This document shows, one piece after another, positions 14,875 to 39,217 of a stretch of DNA of 64,000 nucleotides. The notes beneath the pieces were generated by a model. That model did no database searches and had not been told where the DNA came from. It worked only from the letters and a program-made list of their open reading frames with translations. The DNA is from Candidatus Methanomethylophilaceae archaeon (GTDB lineage Archaea; Thermoplasmatota; Thermoplasmata; Methanomassiliicoccales; Methanomethylophilaceae), in assembly GCA_017461225.1 (NCBI GenBank), contig JAFTYV010000058.1:1-64000 (forward strand), given 5' to 3'. Position 1 is the stretch's first letter. Each line of letters opens with the position of its first letter. Position numbers and translations under genes: made by a program.

Positions 14875-15996
14875 ATGCCAGAGGATTTCAAGGTCACACC
14901 ATGGGAAGTAACGGGGGACATCGATTACGACCTCCTCCAGGAGAAGTTCGGGACGACACCTATAGACGACGCGCTCAAGGAGAGGTTGTCCAGGTACGGC
15001 GAGCTCCACCCCATGATAAGGCGCGGGGTCTTCTACTCCCACAGGGACATGGTGCCGCTGCTCGACATGTACGACAAGGGCGAGAGGTTCGTCCTGTACA
15101 CGGGCAGGGGCCCCTCCGGCAACACGCATCTCGGTCACCTCATGCCCTGGATCTTCAACAAATGGGTCCAGGACACATTCGGAGTGGACATGCTGTTCCA
15201 GATGACCGACGATGAGAAGTTCCTCTTCAAGGACCTCACCCTCGGGGACACATCCTCAATGGCGTACGAGAACGCCCTCGATTTCATCGCACTCGGATTC
15301 GATCCGGCGAAGACCAGGATAATCCTCAACACGAAGAACATCGACAAGCTGTATCCGATGGCCCTCAGGATATCCAAGAAGGTGACCTTCTCCACGGCCA
15401 AGGCCGTCTTCGGTTTCGACAACTCGACCAACATCGGATCGATATTCTACACGACGCTCCAGTCGGTACCCGCGTTCATCCCCTCGGAGGAGGCCGGCAA
15501 GCAGGTGCCCGTGCTCATCCCCTGCGGTATCGACCAGGACCCCCACTTCAGGGTGACCAGGGATGTCGCCCCCGGTCTGGGCTATCCCAAACCCTCCCTG
15601 ATGTACTGCAAGATGTTCCCCGCACTGAACGGCGGGGACAAGATGTCGTCCTCGGACGAGAACGCCACCATATACACCACCGACACCCCCAAGGCCGTCA
15701 AGAAGAAGGTCGGGAGGGCGTTCACCGGAGGGTGCGTGTCCGTCGAGGAGCAGAGGGAGAAGGGCGGCAACCCCGAGGTCTGTGCCGTCTTCAAGTACAA
15801 CTACTACCTGTTCGAGCACGACGATGAGGCCCTCAACGAGATGGCCACCAAGTGCCGCAACGGGGAGATCCTCTGCGGTGAGTGCAAGATGTGCCTGACC
15901 GAGAAGATCAACGTGTTCCTCGAGGGACACCAGGACCGCAGGGAGAAGGCCAAGGATGTCGTGGCCGGCATGACCTACGACGGTTTCGAATGGTGA
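14875..15996 (+). CDS. trpS: tryptophan--tRNA ligase
   Basis: Class I synthetase that charges tRNA-Trp. The 373-residue protein is of the archaeal/eukaryotic type. The HIGH-class motif is GPSGNTHLGHL (about 79-89) and the KMSKS-class motif is GGDKMSSS (about 253-260). A C-terminal cysteine cluster (CRNGEILCGECKMC) may bind metal. Its substrate tRNA-Trp is at 48423-48594. It is four bases from pheS, so the two synthetases form an operon. Confidence 0.95.
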   Translation: MPEDFKVTPWEVTGDIDYDLLQEKFGTTPIDDALKERLSRYGELHPMIRRGVFYSHRDMVPLLDMYDKGERFVLYTGRGPSGNTHLGHLMPWIFNKWVQDTFGVDMLFQMTDDEKFLFKDLTLGDTSSMAYENALDFIALGFDPAKTRIILNTKNIDKLYPMALRISKKVTFSTAKAVFGFDNSTNIGSIFYTTLQSVPAFIPSEEAGKQVPVLIPCGIDQDPHFRVTRDVAPGLGYPKPSLMYCKMFPALNGGDKMSSSDENATIYTTDTPKAVKKKVGRAFTGGCVSVEEQREKGGNPEVCAVFKYNYYLFEHDDEALNEMATKCRNGEILCGECKMCLTEKINVFLEGHQDRREKAKDVVAGMTYDGFEW

Positions 15997-16000
15997 TCAC

Positions 16001-17521
16001 ATGATAGGTTCGGATATTCTGGAAGGATTGAGCCACAACGAGAAGAGGCTCCTGCTCGCATTGGACGAGGTCGGCGGTTCCGCATCCCCGGTGGATCTCA
16101 TCGGCAGCGGCAGGTTCGACCTGGAGGTCGAGATCATGGGTGCCGCCTCGTGGCTGGAGTCCAAGGGCATGGCGACCCTCACCGAGGTCGTCGAGAGGTT
16201 CTACGTGGTCTCGGACGCATCCGTCCTCGAGACGGGGCTCCCGGAGCGTGTCGCGATCAGGTGCATCGATGCCGCCGGCGGTAGGATGGACATGAACGCC
16301 CTGGCCGAGGCCATGCCCGGTGGAGCGGACAAGATCGCCGTGGGATGGCTCAAGAGGAAGGGTCTCGCCGACATCGTCAAGGACGGTGACGTGAAGGCCC
16401 TGGTGCTCACCGACAGGGCGAGGGACCTCCTGGATTCGCAGATGCCCGACGAGGAGCTCCTGGCCAGGATGGCCGCGGGACCGGTCCCCGAGGCGGAGGC
16501 GGATCCCGCCGTCGTCAAGGACCTCAGGGGACGTCAGGGCATGATCGCCGAGAAGGTGGTCACATCCAGGACCGTGTCGCTCACGGACCTCGGTACCGAG
16601 GCCGCCCGTTCGGGCATAGAGCTCAGGCCCCAGGTCTCCGACATCACCGACCGCATGATCCAGAACGGGGAGTGGAGGGATGCCGAGTTCCGCAGGTACG
16701 ACATCCAGACGTTCGCCCCCACGATCGCCCCCGCCAAGAAGCACCCCCTCTCCAGGCTCGGTGCCCAGGTCAGGAGGCTGTTCACGGACATGGGGTTCAC
16801 GGAGATGTCCTCCGAGTACGTGCAGCCCGCGTTCTGGAACCTCGACATCCTGTTCACGCCCCAGGACCATCCGGCAAGGGACCTCCAGGACACGTTCTAC
16901 CTCGAGACCCCCTCGAAGATAAGGGTCGAGGACGAGGAGCTCGTGGAGGCGGTCCGCAACATCCACGAGAACGGTTGGACGACCGGTTCCACCGGATGGG
17001 GCGGGGAGTGGTCCAGAGAGAAGGCGGAGGCCGCACTCCTCAGGACCCACAGCACCGTGAGCAGCATAAGGTACATCGCCGAGCATCCGGATGCCCCCCA
17101 GAAGGCGTTCTCCATATCCAGGATCTTCAGGAAGGAGTCCATCGATGCCACGCACCTGCCCGAGTTCACCCAGATCGAGGGTATCGTCATCGACGAGAAC
17201 GCGGACTTCAACATGCTCATCTCGATCATCAGGGAGTTCTACGCCAGGATGGGTTTCGACCAGATCCGCATCCGTCCCGCGTACTTCCCTTACACGGAGC
17301 CGTCCCTCGAACTGGAGGTGTTCTTCAACGGCAAGTGGATGGAACTGGGTGGAGCCGGCATATTCAGGCCCGAGGTCCTCGCGCCGTTCGGTGTGAAGCA
17401 CCCGGTCCTCGCATGGGGATTCGGTTTCGAGAGGTTGGCCATGCTCAAATGGAACATCAGGGACATCAGGGACCTGTACATATCCGACCTCGACAACCTC
17501 AAGGCCAACACCATACTCTGA
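16001..17521 (+). CDS. pheS: phenylalanine--tRNA ligase alpha subunit
   Basis: Catalytic subunit of the alpha2-beta2 class II synthetase. The 506-residue archaeal form begins with winged-helix-like domains (LSHNEKRLLLALDEVGG and following), then the catalytic core with motif 2 region THSTVSSIRYI and FTQIEGIVIDE, and motif 3 (AWGFGFERLAMLKWNIRDIR). The start has a very clear site, GGTGATC followed two bases later by ATG. That spacing is used below to judge another start. The beta-subunit gene pheT is not adjacent. Confidence 0.95.
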   Translation: MIGSDILEGLSHNEKRLLLALDEVGGSASPVDLIGSGRFDLEVEIMGAASWLESKGMATLTEVVERFYVVSDASVLETGLPERVAIRCIDAAGGRMDMNALAEAMPGGADKIAVGWLKRKGLADIVKDGDVKALVLTDRARDLLDSQMPDEELLARMAAGPVPEAEADPAVVKDLRGRQGMIAEKVVTSRTVSLTDLGTEAARSGIELRPQVSDITDRMIQNGEWRDAEFRRYDIQTFAPTIAPAKKHPLSRLGAQVRRLFTDMGFTEMSSEYVQPAFWNLDILFTPQDHPARDLQDTFYLETPSKIRVEDEELVEAVRNIHENGWTTGSTGWGGEWSREKAEAALLRTHSTVSSIRYIAEHPDAPQKAFSISRIFRKESIDATHLPEFTQIEGIVIDENADFNMLISIIREFYARMGFDQIRIRPAYFPYTEPSLELEVFFNGKWMELGGAGIFRPEVLAPFGVKHPVLAWGFGFERLAMLKWNIRDIRDLYISDLDNLKANTIL

Positions 17522-20448: not shown

Positions 20449-21681
20449 ATGGGTGAAACCAATTCGATGGATAAAGCGAAATACGATTTCAAGAAGGATA
20501 TGCAGGAGATCACAGGTTACAGGGGAAGGGGAACCGAGCTCATCTCGGTCTACGTCCCCGGCAACAAGCAGATCTCGGATGTCATGGCCTACCTCAGGAA
20601 CGAGCAGTCCCAGGCATCCAACATCAAGTCCAAGACGACGATGAAGAACGTCACGAGTGCGATCGATTCCATCGCCGCTCGACTCAAAACGTACAAGACG
20701 CCTCCGGAGAACGGAGTCGTGATCTTCTGTGGGGAGGTCCCCCGTGCAGGTGACCAGACCAAGATGGTCCAGTATGTCATCAACCCCCCGGAACCCATCA
20801 CCGCGTTCCTGTACAGATGCGATGCCCAGTTCTTCACCGAACCCCTCGAGGCGATGCTCCTCGACAAGAAATGCTACGGTCTCATAACCATCGACAGGTC
20901 CGAGGCCACGATAGGTCTCCTCAGCGGGAGCAGGATCCAGGTCATGAAGCACTTCGACTCCCTGGTCCCCAGCAAGCACCACCAGGGAGGTCAGTCGTCC
21001 GTCCGTTTCGAGAGGCTGATCGAGATCGCCGCCCACGAGTTCTTCAAGAAGGTCGCCGACAACGCGACCGAGATATTCCTCAACAGGCCTGAGATGCTCG
21101 GACTCCTGATAGGCGGGCCCGGAGCGACCAAGGACTTCTTCGTGAAGGAGGAGTACCTCCACCACGAGCTCAGGAAGAAGGTCTGCTCGCCCCTCGTGGA
21201 CACCGGGTACACCGACGAGTCCGGACTCAGGGAGCTCGTCGAGAACGCCAAGGACATCATCACCGACATGCAGCTCACCGTGGAGAAGGAGTTCATGCAG
21301 AGGCTCTTCGCCGAGATCAGGAAGTCCGACGGAGGGCTCTCCTGCTACGGGGAGGACGAGGTCAGGGCCGCCACCGACATGGGTGCCGCCGACATACTCC
21401 TCCTGTCCGAGTCGCTCAGCAAGAGGCGCGTCACGGTGCAGTGCTCCTCAGGACACACGCACGAGCTGACGGTGAAGGATGCCGACGAGAGGATCAACTG
21501 CCCCGAGTGCGGCGGCTCCGCCACCGTCATCAAGGACGAGGACCTCATCGACGACTTCTTCCTCAGGGCGGACGCGTTCAACACCCGCGTCCAGATCATA
21601 TCCCCCGATTCCGAGGAGGGGGACATGCTCCTCAAGGCGTTCGGAGGCATAGCCGCGCTCCTCAGGTACAAGGTGAACTAA
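20449..21681 (+). CDS. prf1: peptide chain release factor aRF1
   Basis: Single archaeal class I release factor; recognises stop codons and triggers peptide release. The codon-recognition motif NIKS is at residues 58-61 and the catalytic GGQ at 180-182 (HHQGGQSSVRFERL). The C-terminal domain has a cysteine pair (CPECGG). The 410-residue length is normal. This factor must serve the TGA/TAA stops that dominate this genome while tolerating UAG read-through if pyrrolysine is used. It abuts argS with no spacer. Confidence 0.96.
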   Translation: MGETNSMDKAKYDFKKDMQEITGYRGRGTELISVYVPGNKQISDVMAYLRNEQSQASNIKSKTTMKNVTSAIDSIAARLKTYKTPPENGVVIFCGEVPRAGDQTKMVQYVINPPEPITAFLYRCDAQFFTEPLEAMLLDKKCYGLITIDRSEATIGLLSGSRIQVMKHFDSLVPSKHHQGGQSSVRFERLIEIAAHEFFKKVADNATEIFLNRPEMLGLLIGGPGATKDFFVKEEYLHHELRKKVCSPLVDTGYTDESGLRELVENAKDIITDMQLTVEKEFMQRLFAEIRKSDGGLSCYGEDEVRAATDMGAADILLLSESLSKRRVTVQCSSGHTHELTVKDADERINCPECGGSATVIKDEDLIDDFFLRADAFNTRVQIISPDSEEGDMLLKAFGGIAALLRYKVN

Positions 21682-32132: not shown

Positions 32133-32567
32133 TCAGGCCCTGTACACGCCGGGACGCACTTCCGCCACGATGCAACGGTCGAGCATGGCCTCCAACAGCT
32201 TCTCGGCGTTCCTCTCGTCGATCTCGCGCACATCCTCCAGGGTGAACGTACCCTTGATCGAGGTCAACCCCTCCGCCAGTATCTCCATGCGTTCCTCCAG
32301 GTCGCGGCTGTGCTCGTACCTGTACACCATCGTGGAGTACGGGTCCGCATGCGAGATCCTGCGTCTTTTCTCCGACGTGTCGGGTGCAGTGAAGCCGGTC
32401 GCCTGGTCGAGGGCCGCCCGGACAGTCTCCTGATCCGCCGATTCGAAGTAGAACACCAGGTTCCTGGTCTTCTCCCTCGCGCCGCAGTACGGGCAGGAGG
32501 ACGTCGCTTGGGACTTGTCCGCGATGCGCGGACGTCTGCAGACGCCGCAGAGGGCGAGGCCGTACAG
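32133..32567 (-). CDS. zinc-ribbon/HTH protein (DUF5817-like) with CTG start codon
   Basis: Canonical starts give only a 107-residue fragment from GTG 32456. In-frame upstream codons encode LYGLALCGVCRRPRIADKSQ and then SSCPYCG, a four-cysteine zinc ribbon (C7, C10, C25, C28) resembling the N-terminus of archaeal DUF5817 proteins, whose first residues align as Met-Tyr. The only codon at that place is CTG (32565-32567), preceded two bases away by AGGTGATC, the same arrangement as the pheS start. The C-terminal part (residues 70-144) looks helical and HTH-like. It lies five bases downstream of pdaD on the same strand. Function unknown, probably nucleic-acid binding. Confidence 0.7.
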   Translation of the reverse strand: MYGLALCGVCRRPRIADKSQATSSCPYCGAREKTRNLVFYFESADQETVRAALDQATGFTAPDTSEKRRRISHADPYSTMVYRYEHSRDLEERMEILAEGLTSIKGTFTLEDVREIDERNAEKLLEAMLDRCIVAEVRPGVYRA

Positions 32568-32571
32568 ACGA

Positions 32572-33045
32572 TCACCTGTACTCGGTGAAGACCAGGGCGG
32601 CGATGCAGCATCCGTAGTGGTCCATGGGGATCTGTAGCTCCTCTGTGACGAAGTTGATCTCCTCGAACTCCACCCCGCGGATGCGCGACATCTCGTCCAT
32701 CTTCCACTTGAGGATCTCCTTGAGGGACTCCGCGGAGCCGTGCATGTGGCCTTCGGCGACGTAGCCCCCCTTGCCGTCCTTCCTGTAGGTGTATGCGATC
32801 CCTGCGGAGATCGTCTCTCCCTCGCATCCCCTCATCTGTGCGAGGACGCAGTGGGTGACGGCACCCATGGGCATCTCGCAGATGTCGATGCACTCGGCTC
32901 CGACGGGTATGACGGACGACACGGAGACCAGGTTCTGCTCTCCGATCCCGGCGGTGATCAGTGCCCTGTCGAACGCGTTGAGGTCCGAGACGGTGCTTAC
33001 TGCGGAGCTGTGCGTTATGAAGAACTTGGAGGGGACGAGGTTCAT
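32572..33045 (-). CDS. pdaD: pyruvoyl-dependent arginine decarboxylase
   Basis: Makes agmatine from arginine; in archaea agmatine feeds polyamines and the agmatidine modification of tRNA-Ile2. The 157-residue proenzyme contains SVSSVIP; by family knowledge it cleaves itself between S43 and S44 to form the pyruvoyl group. FITHSSAVS near the start, GIGEQNLV, and AQMRGCEGETISAGIAY are conserved. The gene precedes the CTG-start zinc-ribbon gene by four bases. Confidence 0.94.
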   Translation of the reverse strand: MNLVPSKFFITHSSAVSTVSDLNAFDRALITAGIGEQNLVSVSSVIPVGAECIDICEMPMGAVTHCVLAQMRGCEGETISAGIAYTYRKDGKGGYVAEGHMHGSAESLKEILKWKMDEMSRIRGVEFEEINFVTEELQIPMDHYGCCIAALVFTEYR

Positions 33046-33085: not shown

Positions 33086-33808
33086 TCAGCCGTAGTACTG
33101 GGCCTCCGACCCCCTGTTGAGGGCCTCCTGCTCGTCGATCCTCCTCTGGATCTCGTCGGCCTCCGCCAGAAGTGGTTTCGTGTCCACCCTGAAGCCGGGG
33201 ACTATCTTGTTGACCGGTGACATGAACATTATGGCGGATCCCGGGTCGGGCACCGCCTGGTTGGCGGGGCACATGAGCGACAGGACGGTCATGCCCGCGG
33301 ACGGTCCGTCGTACAGGAGGATCCCCGTGATGCCGCGGACCATGCCGTTGTCCATGACCTTCAGCTTGGTCTTCCTCAGGAGGCTCCTGGCCCTGGGGCC
33401 GGATCCGAAGGCGACCATCTCGTCCTCGTCCGTGAAGCGGGGGACCCCCTCGAGGCATATGACCTCCTCGCAACCGAGGCCCCTGAGGTAGTCCAGGATG
33501 GCATGTGCCAGATCGTAGCAGCACTCCGGCTTGGGGGTGTACTCGGACATGCAGACGACGACGTCGCGCCCGGTCTTCCCGGTCCCCTTGCGTCCGAAGA
33601 ACCTGACCGGCGGGAGGGCCATCCCGTTCCCGATGAGGCAGTACGGCGGCATGTCCGCCGACGACATCCCGGCGATGGGGGTCATCTCGAGCTGCGTTAT
33701 GTAGAAGTTCGCTGCGATGGAGCTGACGAGTCCAGCGGTCGGGAACCCTATGACGGCGACAGGCCTGTCGAGTTCCAGGTCCGTGTACTTCGTAGTCTTC
33801 ACCTTCAT
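33086..33808 (-). CDS. PAC2-family protein (proteasome assembly chaperone-like)
   Basis: Member of the PAC2/ATP-grasp-associated family related to eukaryotic proteasome assembly chaperone 2. PVAVIGFPTAGLVSSIAANF at the N-terminus and PSAGMTVLSLMCPANQAVPD in the second half are typical. The 240-residue length is normal. I preferred ATG 33808 to the upstream start at 33847 because a TATA-like sequence (TTATTATCC, minus strand) lies between them. The archaeal function remains unproven. Confidence 0.85.
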   Translation of the reverse strand: MKVKTTKYTDLELDRPVAVIGFPTAGLVSSIAANFYITQLEMTPIAGMSSADMPPYCLIGNGMALPPVRFFGRKGTGKTGRDVVVCMSEYTPKPECCYDLAHAILDYLRGLGCEEVICLEGVPRFTDEDEMVAFGSGPRARSLLRKTKLKVMDNGMVRGITGILLYDGPSAGMTVLSLMCPANQAVPDPGSAIMFMSPVNKIVPGFRVDTKPLLAEADEIQRRIDEQEALNRGSEAQYYG

Positions 33809-33860
33809 GGACGGGTGATTGCCATTAGGATAATAAGGGGTTTCCATCTACGGTCGGTCC

Positions 33861-39111: not shown

Positions 39112-39217
39112 GCCGGGGTGGCTCAGCCTGGTGGAGCGTCGGACTCATAGGGTTCTGGTCATATAGACCTCTTCCAGGGAAATCCGAAGGTCATGGGTTC
39201 GAACCCCATTCCCGGCA
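39112..39217 (+). tRNA. elongator tRNA-Met (anticodon CAT) with 32-nt intron
   Basis: Exon 1 is 39112-39149 and exon 2 is 39182-39217, giving acceptor GCCGGGG/TCCCGGC, anticodon stem TCGGA/TCCGA and loop CTCATAA with anticodon CAT. The intron (39150-39181) is at the canonical 37/38 position, where archaeal splicing endonuclease cuts a bulge-helix-bulge. The G1-C72 start is that of the elongator, not the initiator, tRNA. CCA is encoded at 39218-39220. The intron end could shift by one base because of an A run. Confidence 0.92.

Follow-up and report, generated by a model that had tools for sequence, protein, structure and literature searches.

A very probable CTG start codon behind pdaD, and CGA at gene ends, in Methanomethylophilaceae archaea

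Described non-canonical starts and code changes

We know of no sense-to-stop reassignment in a cellular genome. Bacterial RF2 limits its own synthesis via an in-frame UGA. For start codons, the excerpts of PMC5622118 used here report that, of 2,468 starts that were ancestrally UUG, one changed to CUG, and they count four switches to CUG in the genome triplets of that study. For sense codons, excerpts of the Codetta study describe bacteria in which arginine codons, including CGA, have been reassigned to amino acids, and the part of its table used here lists no "other amino acid" call for the 2,309 species of archaea (PMC8629427). No report of CTG/CUG starts in the archaea discussed here, or of CGA stops or a sense-to-stop change in them, was found in the open-licence literature. 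The text on isolate ISO4-G1 makes no mention of CGA stops (PMC4824259), and the term CGA is absent from the excerpts on ISO4-H5 (PMC5011839).

The locus compared with these systems lies in the window, the whole 64,000-nt stretch of DNA that was analysed. G000 denotes the window's own genome, G094 its sister genome, and L numbers denote loci or stretches. The features are collected in Table 1.

Table 1. Coordinates of the features discussed, in window positions
Feature	Position	Strand	Basis
DUF5817-like gene, 144 codons plus TGA, CTG-initiated (very probably)	32133..32567	-	frame, profile, start column of relatives
TGA stop of the DUF5817-like gene	32135-32133	-	frame
CTG start codon (very probably)	32565..32567	-	start column of 107 relatives; TTG in sister G094 (L003)
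Shine-Dalgarno AGGTGATC, sharing bases with pdaD's last codon (AGG) and stop (TGA)	32570..32577	-	pairs with own 16S 3' end
GTG, first canonical in-frame start, rejected since it lies 3' of the metal site	32454..32456	-	frame and Cys conservation
pdaD (pyruvoyl-dependent arginine decarboxylase), the gene upstream, probably coupled	32572..33045	-	PF01862, E 1.8e-38
PAC2-family gene, further upstream than pdaD	33086..33847	-	PF09754, E 4.3e-35
aRF1 release factor gene	20470..21681	+	TIGR03676, 537 bits
Sole in-frame CGA of aRF1	20680..20682	+	same codon in 25/26 genus genomes

Start codon of the gene downstream of pdaD

The sequence-only reading had proposed a CTG-initiated gene here, with a four-cysteine zinc ribbon upstream of GTG 32456 and no ATG, GTG or TTG before that codon. 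Its gene coordinates are correct, down to the stop. The DUF5817-like frame extends from stop to stop over 32831 to 32133, GTG 32456 is its first ATG, GTG or TTG, and an independent scan (row L001) counted zero canonical start codons upstream of the first Cys. As read from the CTG, the protein begins LYGLALCGVC...CPYC, and both CxxC pairs precede the GTG.

The 3' edge of AGGTGATC lies 2 nt from the CTG. The eight-base anti-SD match proposed for it was borne out, since the 3' end of the genome's own 16S, ...GGATCACCTCCT (L232), is complementary to all eight bases. AGGTGATCNNCTG has a single occurrence in the window, for an expectation of 0.06. Wherever pdaD ends in AGG TGA, its last codon and stop supply a Shine-Dalgarno sequence. 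A comparison that had been drawn with pheS also stands: GGTGATCACATG is found at 15992-16003, with the ATG at 16001, and the gene is pheS by NCBIfam. Among the relatives read, a Shine-Dalgarno match of at least 6 nt accompanies 14 of the 15 non-ATG loci versus 11 of the 92 ATG loci (Fisher 4.9e-10, uncorrected for kinship, so that this P is too small). This agrees with the excerpts of PMC5622118, in which weak starts accompany strong Shine-Dalgarno sequences.

Of the 147 genomes of the order that were searched, 120 have a DUF5817-like relative. We fetched 110 loci and read 107; the other three were dropped because they had no local match. The start codons of the 107 are ATG in 92, TTG in four, GTG in four, CTG only in three, either GTG(-9) or CTG(-6) in three and ATC in one. 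The homologues' starts thus fall at the CTG codon, as an alignment check suggested with the original claim had anticipated, and 92/107 have ATG at the CTG column or at most 3 codons off. CTG without a credible alternative start is found in G000, G089 and G047. On a tree, these CTG-only loci need three changes, and the well-supported branches force at least two. Three further candidates (L019, L023 and L073) were dropped as CTG starts since an in-frame GTG 3 codons upstream, in or beside the Shine-Dalgarno sequence, could start them. The sister genome (L003) has an identical AGGTGATCGT, followed by TTG exactly at the CTG column. In L043 (G033), the sole credible start is ATC after AGGTGATC, and an error or decay at the start codon may be at work in some relatives. 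The DUF5817 genes of G083 and G080 (L017, L018) carry an in-frame TAG, which represents either pyrrolysine or a broken gene.

Codon usage was scanned over 421,978 bases of the own genome (the window plus 20 stretches, 28%), with known genes as the seed. The scan places the beginning of a coding segment exactly at the CTG. A canonical start is near in 388/390 coding segments, the exceptions being the DUF5817-like gene and RNase HI. The latter (L243:10524-10526) opens CTG AGG TAC within a CTGA overlap with panD, and G076, G099, G100, G097, G074, G085 and G042 have TTG in TTGA at this start. CTG starts are therefore rare in the window's genome, yet not unique. In 20-kb stretches of 20 relatives, 3/382 segments lack a canonical start, and there was no clear additional CTG start among them. 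These data bear on a sequencing or assembly error, in which the true codon would be TTG (or ATG) as in the relatives. An error would fit the draft state of the window's assembly (64 contigs) and the TTG of the sister, but CTG is the only start in G089 and G047 too, and the second CTG start of the genome likewise stands where relatives have TTG. We consider an error improbable.

The coding evidence comes from the comparison of G000 with G094. Over the 36 codons from the CTG to residue 37, the DUF5817 frame shows 11 synonymous and 7 non-synonymous changes. Over the 30 codons upstream of the CTG, it shows 0 synonymous and 11 non-synonymous changes, while the pdaD frame shows 10 and 1. By these counts, the constraint switches from the pdaD frame to the DUF5817 frame at the CTG. 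Translation from GTG 32456, by which the zinc ribbon would not be produced, has in its favor that this is the first canonical start of the frame, but synonymous changes outnumber the others upstream of it, Cys7, 10, 25 and 28 are invariant across 50 aligned relatives, and the starts of relatives lie at the CTG column instead. This alternative is very unlikely.

The protein could also arise by frameshifting, either out of pdaD or from a GTG overlapping the pdaD stop (GTGA). AGGTGA does contain a GTG in another frame, and this GTG is in frame in at least four relatives (L019, L023, L029, L073). Against it, the offset to pdaD varies among relatives, several of which have a stop codon in frame immediately upstream of their ATG, and the sister has a simple TTG; a frameshift seems scarcely credible. 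The varying offset also rules out an indel that would restore the GTG at the pdaD stop to this frame, and it led us to reject a fusion with pdaD.

The gene very probably starts at the CTG. As a whole, the best explanation, which we hold to be highly likely from the sequence comparisons, is a CTG restart via AGGTGATC after pdaD termination, with a start derived from TTG. Ribosomes ending pdaD at TGA 32574-32572 would be held by the 8-nt AGGTGATC, which consists of the last codon and the stop of pdaD plus two further bases. They would then restart at CTG 32567, in a coupling to pdaD termination that we infer. The initiator tRNA-Met would decode the CTG, so the N-terminus of the protein would be Met. 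Since the sister's TTG follows the same AGGTGATCGT, a single T-to-C change would yield the window's CTG from the state kept in the sister. A weak CTG start would be tolerable because the Shine-Dalgarno sequence is strong, and the start very probably belongs to a rare but known class of events.

The 144-residue protein is predicted to combine an N-terminal zinc ribbon with a C-terminal winged-helix-like part. In the structure model (mean pLDDT 87.9, pTM 0.50), short strands form a ribbon, which is followed by helices and a winged-helix-like end. The C-terminal part gives a weak PF21100 MCM_C match (E 0.095), and a Foldseek search with the model returned no significant match (best E 0.18). The description of the protein as DUF5817-like holds for the two CxxC pairs and the profile alignment, which covers residues 5-51 from profile position 4 (PF19134, E 1.8e-6); it falls short on score, at 28.3 bits under a Pfam cut-off of 31, and the sister protein scores 28.6 bits. 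By these matches, it is a relative of DUF5817 and not a member. Its role is perhaps nucleic-acid binding, as we infer.

CGA at gene ends and in the aRF1 gene

CGA at gene ends is a larger surprise than the CTG start. In the window's genus and in Methanomethylophilus, CGA replaces the homologues' TGA at the stops of pdaD, DUF5817, panD, trm5 and PAC2 genes. Loci with CGA at a conserved stop include L013, L020, L024, L025, L026, L029, L030, L032, L040, L490, L493, L512, L513, L333 and L334. Among the 107 loci read, pdaD ends in TAC AGG CGA in G092, G084, G079, G090 and G085, and the DUF5817 stop position is CGA in G092, G096, G085, G088, G098, G102 and G044. For panD, the stop position is CGA in 10/30, clearly so in 7; in G087, G044 and G086 the end is not clear since a TGA follows 1-2 codons further on. 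The conserved end of trm5 is CGA in G080, G097, G098 and G102.

Gene ends were also tested by homology in the 20-kb stretches of the 20 relatives, using genes with up to 18 homologues. Genes there end at CGA, or within one codon of it, while the frame remains open. In G079, this holds for the PAC2 gene, whose frame is open for 386 further codons, and for pdaD and a 435-aa gene. Genes of 479 aa and 448 aa in G044, and a membrane-protein gene in G090 and G092, end at or near CGA with the frame open. With CGA imposed as a boundary, 13 of the 18 gene ends in a single 20-kb stretch of G079 are CGA, more than for any other codon. Apparent CGA ends in other genera (2 in G072, 2 in G031 and 3 in G121) were obtained with the same imposed boundary, for which the homology tests are safer.

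In the window's own species, the case for CGA stops rests on few genes. Its trm5 (L250:18641) has a CGA a few codons beyond the conserved end, after which the frame is open for more than 330 codons, and its Kae1 (L252:3169) has a CGA directly after the conserved end, with TIGR03722 matched to position 323/323. The window gene at 26301-26020 has a possible CGA end, with homologues that are too weak. CGA stands at 3/37 coding-segment ends in the own genome and is not among the enriched codons, so these ends lend no support by themselves to CGA stops in this species. A further CGA is found at L242:10451, at the junction of two parts that we take to be pyridoxamine-kinase-like (PdxK-like) and GNAT-like. 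The sister has TGA there; most relatives have a true fusion, so this CGA may be a linker Arg.

As a sense codon, CGA is nearly absent. In the homology-supported DNA of the 20-kb stretches, it accounts for 0/312 Arg codons in G000, and each of the other genomes has at most 2 CGA codons, most of them in doubtful frames. Of the 7,882 Arg codons in the own-genome sample, 10 are CGA, and roughly half of these 10 lie at segment edges. This is 0.33% of CGN, the lowest A-ending share among the eight four-fold boxes; CTA is likewise low, at 0.58%. Strong codon bias thus accounts for part of the scarcity of CGA.

Two observations count against a simple reading of CGA as a stop. One internal CGA in a gene that is presumably rpl18e (ribosomal protein L18e; query codon 25, L425-L454) is kept in 26/30 genomes of two genera, the codon being CGT in G079, G084, G090 and G091. 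In addition, G000 and 16 further members of the genus have tRNA-Arg(UCG), among them the CGA-stop genomes G090, G092 and G085. None was seen in 14 genomes of the genus and four of Methanomethylophilus, with a pattern that misses a known copy in G072; in two of the 14, the pattern has matches that are not tRNA-like. The tRNA-Arg(UCG) of the window's genus (L244:16210-16286 and the relatives read) seems to have 31-39 unpaired and a 4-bp anticodon stem. Elsewhere in the window, the Rfam model finds a 106-nt tRNA at 39112-39217 that ARAGORN missed, probably with an intron.

The release factor gene itself carries a CGA. The codon at 20680-20682 is the only CGA of aRF1 in 25 of the 26 genus genomes read (G085 partially). 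The remaining genome, G079, has CGC at this codon, and its own aRF1 reaches CGA at the conserved end. Methanomethylophilus-type aRF1 has exactly one CGA in 12/12 cases, always at residue 18, which is a different codon from that of the window's genus; G072 and G121, of other genera, have a CGA at residue 18 too. NIKS is intact wherever aRF1 was parsed, a set that leaves out G090 and G085. Because the genome hardly uses CGA, the conserved CGA of aRF1 is not due to chance. The favored possibility is that aRF1 competes at this codon and so limits its own synthesis. The conserved in-frame CGA is only a hint that aRF1 would release at CGA.

The comparative evidence for CGA at gene ends in the clade is strong, and CGA looks like an extra stop codon in the window's genus and in Methanomethylophilus. 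A wider reading, which we regard as probable on comparative grounds, is that the first base has been loosened in both punctuations. CTG would serve as a start beside TTG, and CGA as a fourth stop read by a self-limiting aRF1, in a sense-to-stop reassignment caught at several stages. Such stages would be the near loss of CGA from coding sequence, a tRNA-Arg(UCG) kept in some species and undetected in others, and CGA stops that range from rare, in the window's species, to the most frequent gene end, in the G079 stretch. That one common cause put C for T at the CTG start and at the CGA stops is only a guess. A further alternative is C-to-U mRNA editing, which would make UUG of the CTG and UGA of the CGA stops. 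In its favor, C replaces T in both oddities, and mRNA editing in plant mitochondria converts CGA to UGA; two papers on plant mitochondria use the phrase "CGA stop codon". Against it, the window's genes commonly use CTG as a sense codon (517 times), which would require site-specific editing, and we know of no such C-to-U system in archaea; this explanation is most improbable.

Comparison with known systems

Gene callers restricted to ATG, GTG and TTG would lose the metal site of the DUF5817-like protein and miss where RNase HI truly begins. In these gut methanogens, a stop function of CGA would mean that annotated genes extend far beyond their true ends; the group would then offer a living example of a sense codon becoming a stop in cells, and isolates or enrichments of it are available.

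DUF5817 (PF19134) proteins have the same two CxxC pairs as the window protein, which scores below the cut-off and would add a C-terminal winged-helix-like part. Known cases of a sense codon ending genes resemble the present one in having a sense codon as the gene end. Unlike in those cases, the codon here is CGA and the genes lie on archaeal chromosomes; coding sequence has all but lost this codon, and one in-frame copy is conserved in the release factor gene. Arginine codons including CGA are common to the Codetta cases (PMC8629427) and to these genomes. As we take the Codetta method to work, it assigns amino acids and not stops. By analogy to bacterial RF2 and its UGA, the one in-frame CGA of aRF1 is proposed to serve a like self-limitation. 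The CTG start shares with rare prokaryotic non-canonical starts (CUG, AUU) the lack of an ATG, GTG or TTG, a strong Shine-Dalgarno sequence and a probable switch from TTG. It differs from them in two respects: the DUF5817-like gene has a CTG start in at least two lineages and another gene of the window's genome has one as well, and the Shine-Dalgarno sequence is formed by the end of the upstream gene.
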